From contig DAIDKV010000022.1 in NCBI GenBank assembly GCA_027449865.1, forward strand, positions 1 to 64,000: DNA of 64,000 nucleotides, written 5' to 3'. The translations under genes and the position numbers were made by a program. This document shows, piece by piece, positions 33,308-34,536 of the stretch (within the stretch, counting starts at the first letter, position 1; each line of letters starts with the position of its first letter). The notes beneath the pieces were generated by a model. The model was given only the letters and a program-made list of their open reading frames with translations. It had not been told where the DNA came from and made no database searches. The stretch comes from Planctomycetales bacterium. GTDB lineage: Bacteria; Planctomycetota; Planctomycetia; Isosphaerales; Isosphaeraceae.

Positions 33308-34087
33308 TTAGCGGCTGGCGCGGCCCTGGGTTTTGATCCGGTCGCGGAGCCGGGCCGCCTGCTCGTAGTCCTCACGAGCGATAGCCTCGTCGAGCTGCTC
33401 ACGTAGCGTTTTCTCGACGTGGTAGTTGCTCCGAATCTCCTGCTCGAAATGGCGGAGCTGATCCGCCAGCGCGGGGTTGGGCGAGCCGTCGATCCCCCGA
33501 TCTTCCCACCACGCCAACTGGTGGGCGTCAATCCGGTCGATCCCTTCGCGAAGGGCGTCGATGGCTTCCTCATAACGGCGACGCTCAAGAGCGAGAATCG
33601 TGACCGCCTGCGCCCGGTGAAACAGGACCGGACCCCGGAGTTGCTCGTGCGAGGCAATAAATGCCTCTTCATGTCCGTGTTGATGGATGAAGTCGATCAG
33701 GTCGAGGGTATGGTCGGCGTCCTGGATCGCCCGGTCGTATCGGCGGAGGGTCAACCAGGCAACGCGGCGATGGTTGAACTGGATGAATTCCCGATCGGCC
33801 TCGTTCGATTGCGCCGGCGACATCGTCCACGAGGCGGGCCTCGTTTTGGCGCCGGACGAGCCGCGGACGGCCGCGCAATGGCGGAGGTAGTCGAGATAGG
33901 TGTTGAAACCGTGAGGCCGGAGGCCATCGGGGCGTCCGGTGACCTCAAGCTGCAAGAGACCCAGCTCGATCCGGACCTGAAGGACCGTCCGCCCGTCACG
34001 GGCCCGGACCTCCCTGGCAAGCACTTCACCGGGCTCAGGGTCGAAAGGCCAGCCCTGGATCACGTCATCCAAGTCGCGTCGCATCAC
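33308..34087 (-). CDS. UVR-motif protein of unknown function
   Basis: A 259-residue protein. The C-terminus (about 228-252, LREQLDEAIAREDYEQAARL) is a UVR motif, as found in UvrB, UvrC and McsA and used for protein pairing. The N-terminal ~90 residues form a beta-rich domain (VLQVRIELGLLQLEVTGRPD GL onward) and the middle is helical, with TPR-like spacing (FNHRRVAWLTLRRYDRAIQ). A nuclease domain is not visible. The family is conserved in planctomycetes without a known role. Start ATG at 34087 or 34084. Confidence 0.7.
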   Translation of the reverse strand: MMRRDLDDVIQGWPFDPEPGEVLAREVRARDGRTVLQVRIELGLLQLEVTGRPDGLRPHGFNTYLDYLRHCAAVRGSSGAKTRPASWTMSPAQSNEADREFIQFNHRRVAWLTLRRYDRAIQDADHTLDLIDFIHQHGHEEAFIASHEQLRGPVLFHRAQAVTILALERRRYEEAIDALREGIDRIDAHQLAWWEDRGIDGSPNPALADQLRHFEQEIRSNYHVEKTLREQLDEAIAREDYEQAARLRDRIKTQGRASR

Positions 34088-34242: not shown

Positions 34243-34536
34243 TCAGGAATGGCGGGGATGGACCGTCCGGGCGAGAGCGGCGAGAGCGGCCTCGGCATCG
34301 GGCCCCTGCGCTTCCAGTTCGAGTTGCTCGCCGTGCTCGGCGATCATGGTGAGCAGCTCGCGCATGCTCTTGCCGTTGTAGCGGCGGCCGTCGTGAATCA
34401 CCCAGACGTCCGACCGGAACTGCCCCGCCGTGCAGATGAACTGTGCGGCCGTCCTCATCCCGAGGCCGCAGGCTTCCTGGATTTTCACCTGGCAGCGCGC
34501 AATCGGGGTGTTCAGGGGCATGATGCCGTCCTCCAT
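34243..34536 (-). CDS. HPr-family protein lacking the active-site His (Crh-like)
   Basis: A 97-residue protein with the whole HPr outline: V-K-I-x-x-x-x-GL at 17-25, AAQFICTAGQF, NGKSMRELLTM (54-64) and LEAQGPDAEAALAAL. The phosphohistidine site GLHARPA reads GLGMRTA (24-30), so the His that receives phosphate from enzyme I is replaced by Gly, while the regulatory-site Ser in KS (S57) is kept. Bacillus Crh shows the same pattern and serves only in regulation. It probably does not carry phosphate for sugar uptake; a HprK-linked regulatory role is inferred. The start could be 34521. Confidence 0.78.
   Translation of the reverse strand: MEDGIMPLNTPIARCQVKIQEACGLGMRTAAQFICTAGQFRSDVWVIHDGRRYNGKSMRELLTMIAEHGEQLELEAQGPDAEAALAALARTVHPRHS

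Follow-up and report, generated by a model that had tools for sequence, protein, structure and literature searches.

What may an HPr-like protein do once the residue that accepts phosphate has gone? The question is raised by an open reading frame (ORF) on the minus strand of the window, as the analysed 64,000-nucleotide stretch of planctomycete DNA is called here, whose predicted product carries the active-site segment GLGMRTA, with Gly15 and Thr18, where HPr has GLHxRPA. The familiar case of an HPr without its His is Crh, which depends on HPr kinase, and the initial annotation proposed that the planctomycete protein may be its counterpart, a Ser-P switch working independently of the PTS.

Identification of a His-less HPr

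The ORF at 34243-34536 is present on the minus strand and is listed with 97 amino acids from a start at 34536. In the closest orthologue (genome G018), an in-frame stop lies just upstream of the matching ATG, together with an AGGAG motif, indicating that the protein is approximately 92 rather than 97 amino acids in length. The features of the gene are as follows:

34243..34521, minus strand: His-less HPr-fold protein of ~92 amino acids, supported by a PF00381 match (68.8 bits), predicted HPr topology, PDB matches to HPr and Crh, and purifying selection
34530..34534, minus strand: Shine-Dalgarno-like GGAGG, assigned from sequence, with AGGAG at the matching place in the G018 orthologue
34519-34521, minus strand: likely start ATG, after GGAGG with a spacer of 8 nt
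34459..34461, minus strand: Gly codon (GGG, codon 26) at HPr position 15, the phosphorylatable His in HPr
34450..34452, minus strand: Thr codon at HPr position 18; Thr in 4/4 orthologues, Pro in 61/80 other family HPrs
34366..34368, minus strand: Ser codon at HPr position 46, in NGKSM; Ser in 4/4 orthologues and 80/80 others; the HprK target in Firmicutes
34360..34362, minus strand: Arg codon at HPr position 48, a hydrophobic docking residue; Arg in 4/4 orthologues, Leu in 74, Met in 5 and Ile in 1 of 80 others
34342..34344, minus strand: Ile codon at HPr position 54; Ile/Val in 4/4 orthologues, Ala in 75, Gly in 4 and Thr in 1 of 80 others

The profile search of the window protein against PF00381 (Pfam PTS-HPr; cut-off: 23 bits) covered profile positions 3-79 of 81. 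In an AlphaFold2 model built from four sequences (mean pLDDT 74; pTM 0.66), the secondary-structure elements follow one another as beta-alpha-beta-beta-alpha-beta-alpha, and the PDB entries that match the model significantly are those of HPr and Crh (TM-scores: 0.63-0.80). By profile match and predicted structure, the protein is classed as a member of the HPr fold family (PF00381). A PTS phosphocarrier HPr has His at position 15, where the window protein has Gly. GLGMRTA, Ser46 within NGKSM and the PF00381 score bear out the initial description of a protein that has lost this His and kept the fold and the regulatory-site Ser.

Fixation of the His loss and selection

Orthologues were sought among 45 genomes of the family, among 397 of the class, where the weaker matches outside the family were assessed by score, and among 84,980 species genomes (GTDB r220). 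An orthologue is present in three of the four other genomes of the genus examined, namely G018 (90% identical; GLGMRTA), G019 (66%; GLRMRTA) and G016 (60%; ELKMRTA), and no copy of the His-less HPr was detected in the fourth, G017. The GTDB scan returned the same three orthologues and two distant matches. These two, from an Akkermansia MAG (L110) and a Burkholderiaceae MAG (L111), were rejected as His-less HPrs, as both keep the His. In the HPr tree, which has few columns and deeper joins that are unsupported, the four orthologues group as one clade (SH-aLRT 99) within the family HPrs, and the stem of this clade is long (0.49). The loss of the His is fixed in this orthologous group (Gly, Gly, Arg and Lys at position 15). 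The group consists of four sequences of a single genus, and for three of these the source is a fragmented draft. Sequence error was rejected as the cause, since orthologues in independent assemblies also lack the His, and a mutation private to one strain, the outcome that would have counted against the initial annotation, is contradicted by the alignment, with the His absent and Ser46 kept in 4/4. A literature search, which was short on subscription papers, returned no described His-less planctomycete HPr.

By the NG86 method, dN/dS is lowest in the closest pair (0.07), reaches 0.14 in the G019/G016 pair and amounts to 0.22-0.25 in comparisons across the pairs, these last values being approximate with synonymous distances near or above 1. 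The canonical HPr paralogues gave values of 0.00-0.17. Differences within the closest pair are distributed over codon positions 1/2/3 as 2/2/21. The His-less HPr is a maintained protein under purifying selection and not a pseudogene. Were the His loss instead the start of pseudogenisation in a decaying duplicate, the lost active site, the freedom of position 15 to vary and the lack of a detected copy in G017 would be explained. We consider this quite improbable, given a frame that is open in 4/4, dN/dS values of 0.07-0.25, the third-position excess, a conserved ribosome-binding site and long invariant blocks (positions 16-19, MRTA, and 27-35, GQFRSDVWV).

Residues specific to the His-less clade

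The four orthologues were compared with the remaining HPrs of the family, 80 in number. All 80 of the latter have His at position 15, where the orthologues have G/G/R/K, and position 47 is Met in the four and Ile, Leu or Val in 80/80 others. Position 23 is Ile in the orthologues and never Ile among the 80, so that at positions 23, 47, 48 and 54 the orthologues carry residues found in 0/80 relatives. Arg17 and Ser46 are retained. Across accessory HPr paralogues of the family, Ala, Thr, Val or Leu often takes the place of Pro18, with His15 kept.

The invariance of Thr18 in the four orthologues could suggest that the protein is still a phosphoprotein, with phosphate on another loop residue such as this one. 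Thr18 also occurs, however, in two His-bearing family HPrs and is thus not a replacement for the His, and Enzyme I (EI) chemistry proceeds from His to His, making such a phosphoprotein extremely unlikely.

Positions 47, 48 and 54 sit on the HPr docking face (cf. PMC6763467). EI, Rsd, LsrK and MtlR all grip E. coli HPr at the same docking residue, Phe48, together with Leu47 (PMC6763467). Set against this Phe48 docking, Arg48, Met47 and the changed residue 54 suggest that the docking patch has been lost along with the phosphate acceptor.

PTS genes and HPr paralogues in the window genome

The genome to which the window belongs is a draft of 8.48 Mb in 278 contigs, 99.4% complete. It encodes four HPr paralogues (contigs C99, C136, C63 and C22), and the three other than the His-less copy keep the His. 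The copy on C99 lies in an hpf/raiA-ptsN-HPr-ptsI cluster encoding complete Enzyme I domains and EIIA-Ntr. The gene ptsI, the presence of which the initial annotation had left to be established, thus accompanies ptsN and a His-bearing HPr, and the cluster has the layout of a regulatory PTS. Planctomycetes are among the lineages with a regulatory PTS and without PTS transporters (PMC2405797). A second Enzyme I-like gene (L006; G000:C258:18546-19406) is unlinked to all four HPr genes. Some genera of the family show an expansion of accessory HPr paralogues, up to six matches per genome being recorded in G016 and G040.

The His-less HPr shares 44-47% identity with its same-genome paralogues and is not linked to ptsN or ptsI. 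With the canonical HPr/NPr of a regulatory PTS, encoded in an HPr-ptsN-ptsI operon, it has in common the fold, Arg17 and Ser46; it differs in the absence of His15, the altered hydrophobic 47/48 patch and the lack of ptsN/ptsI linkage. As complete EI, EIIA-Ntr and a canonical HPr are encoded in one operon of the same genome, and fold and Arg17 are retained, the protein might act as a decoy that mimics dephospho-HPr, competes for Enzyme I or EIIA-Ntr and thereby lowers PTS phosphorylation. Residue 48, which EI holds in a hydrophobic pocket (PMC6763467), is however Arg in 4/4, which should weaken docking, as should the enlarged residue 54, and we regard a decoy as unlikely.

HPr kinase and the comparison with Crh

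A gene for HPr kinase, the other partner that the initial annotation called for, was not found in the genome or the genus with the profiles tried, and such an absence is what the annotation itself had named as evidence against it. Hpr_kinase_C (PF07475) had no match in the window genome itself, Hpr_kinase_N (PF02603) gave nothing significant in the genome or the genus, and TIGR00679 returned only P-loop fragments in the genus (model positions ~131-166) of less than 16 bits. Across 199 genomes of the phylum, the HPr kinase matches are all partial P-loop matches, one of which lies just above the cut-off. This negative result is strong, although not absolute, as the genome of B. subtilis, used as a control and expected to encode hprK, scored below the cut-off. 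The NF010354/PRK13782 equivalog model, which we take to be the model for Crh-type proteins, scored 53.4 bits, below its cut-off of 123.

In a Crh-like switch, HPr kinase would phosphorylate Ser46 and the Ser-P form would co-regulate a transcription factor. The loss of the His with retention of Ser46 is as in Crh, which furthermore ranks with the best matches by sequence in the PDB (2.3e-10), but this similarity is one of overall sequence and not of the docking face. Position 48, which is Met in both Crh and B. subtilis HPr, is occupied by Arg in the four orthologues. Moreover, Ser46 is universal in the family, and its presence in 80/80 His-bearing relatives renders its retention uninformative on a Ser switch. 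A Crh-type switch was rejected as the leading reading, with the kinase not found, Ser46 universal and residue 48 changed, and it appears very doubtful. The initial proposal of a PTS-independent Ser-P switch therefore survives in its first half, in that the absence of the His from 4/4 orthologues makes use of the HPr fold without PTS phosphotransfer plausible, and falls in its Ser-P half.

The protein shares with Bacillus Crh the HPr fold, a replaced His15 (Gln in Crh), a kept Ser46 and its standing as a paralogue beside a normal HPr. It differs in the kinase on which Crh depends, not found here, and in positions 47/48, which are Met/Arg in 4/4 versus Ile47 and Met48, the residues for HprK and CcpA docking, in Crh. 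Residue 54 is Ile/Val here and Ala in Crh, position 15 is not fixed to one residue, and the origin is a separate one within the planctomycete HPrs. The parallel with Crh extends to the single His change but breaks down at the kinase and the docking face.

Neighbouring genes

The downstream neighbour of the His-less HPr gene, 155 bp away, is:

33308..34087, minus strand: UVR-motif protein of 259 amino acids with a C-terminal motif (PF02151)

Homologues of this gene are present in 41/45 genomes of the family, and it adjoins the His-less HPr only in the window genome and G018. A second, more distant paralogue is found in most of those genomes. As a family-wide gene linked only in the two closest genomes, it was rejected as a functional partner and is probably an incidental neighbour.

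Directly upstream of the HPr-like gene in G016 and G019 is a BON-domain gene (PF04972), the stop of which overlaps the first in-frame ATG of the HPr-like frame (ATGA). A same-strand BON-like gene also precedes three more HPr paralogues (G019, G016 and G009), at 88-157 nt from the HPr match; at a fourth (G014), the BON-like frame in this place is broken. Of the 33 BON matches in the search of the family, five are positioned no more than ~400 bp upstream of an HPr, a number for which we estimate a chance expectation of well below one. BON genes occur immediately upstream, on the same strand, of several accessory HPr genes, both His-bearing and His-less (L040 in G019, L041 in G016, L066, L081, L092 and L065). 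In the window genome, the His-less HPr has no BON neighbour, and just one weak, unrelated BON match was found.

A proposed role for the His-less HPr

We suggest, with a probability of roughly 0.5, that the protein is an HPr neofunctionalised as an adaptor that acts independently of phosphorylation and has a new partner, possibly linked to BON. An accessory HPr paralogue would have lost its phosphocarrier chemistry in an ancestor of the genus and been kept as a phosphorylation-independent binding protein. With the acceptor His gone, the protein would take up no phosphate from Enzyme I, and the remodelled face (Arg48, Met47 and a bulky residue 54) would lack the hydrophobic patch on which EI, Rsd, MtlR, CcpA and HprK rely. 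Together, these two changes would most likely leave constitutive binding of a new partner, in the manner of dephospho-HPr, controlled by expression level and not by phosphorylation. For two of the orthologous genomes, the best candidate for this partner is the BON-domain protein or a target of the latter. A new role is supported by the full His-bearing HPr that the window genome keeps with ptsN and ptsI, as well as by the single clade on its long stem, the invariant blocks next to a freely varying position 15, the clade-specific residues, the low dN/dS and the BON-HPr overlap. Against it stand the small number of sequences, the missing copy in G017 and the lack of a BON neighbour in the window genome. 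The sequence data demonstrate the His loss in 4/4, the clade-specific residues, the purifying selection, the HPr fold and the BON-HPr overlap; the binding function, its partner and its mode of control are what we infer.

Dephospho-HPr is established as an allosteric partner in enterics and vibrios (PMC6763467, PMC5320558, PMC5987630), and its action on Rsd, MtlR, PykA and glycogen phosphorylase provides a precedent for an HPr that acts by binding without phosphate transfer. There, however, binding is switched by phosphorylation of His15 and uses Phe48, and the His-less HPr has neither. A narrower form of the adaptor reading, in which a phosphorylation-free HPr has been co-opted as a dedicated BON partner, giving planctomycetes an HPr-BON signalling or structural pair without PTS or HPr kinase input, is somewhat improbable.

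For the family, retention of Ser46 with loss of His15 is insufficient to call a protein Crh, as Ser46 is universal in a family without a detectable kinase. The His-less clade would represent a second, independent loss of the His, with HPr kinase not found and the docking patch lost, and, if this is true, would show the HPr fold to be reusable as a plain binding module.
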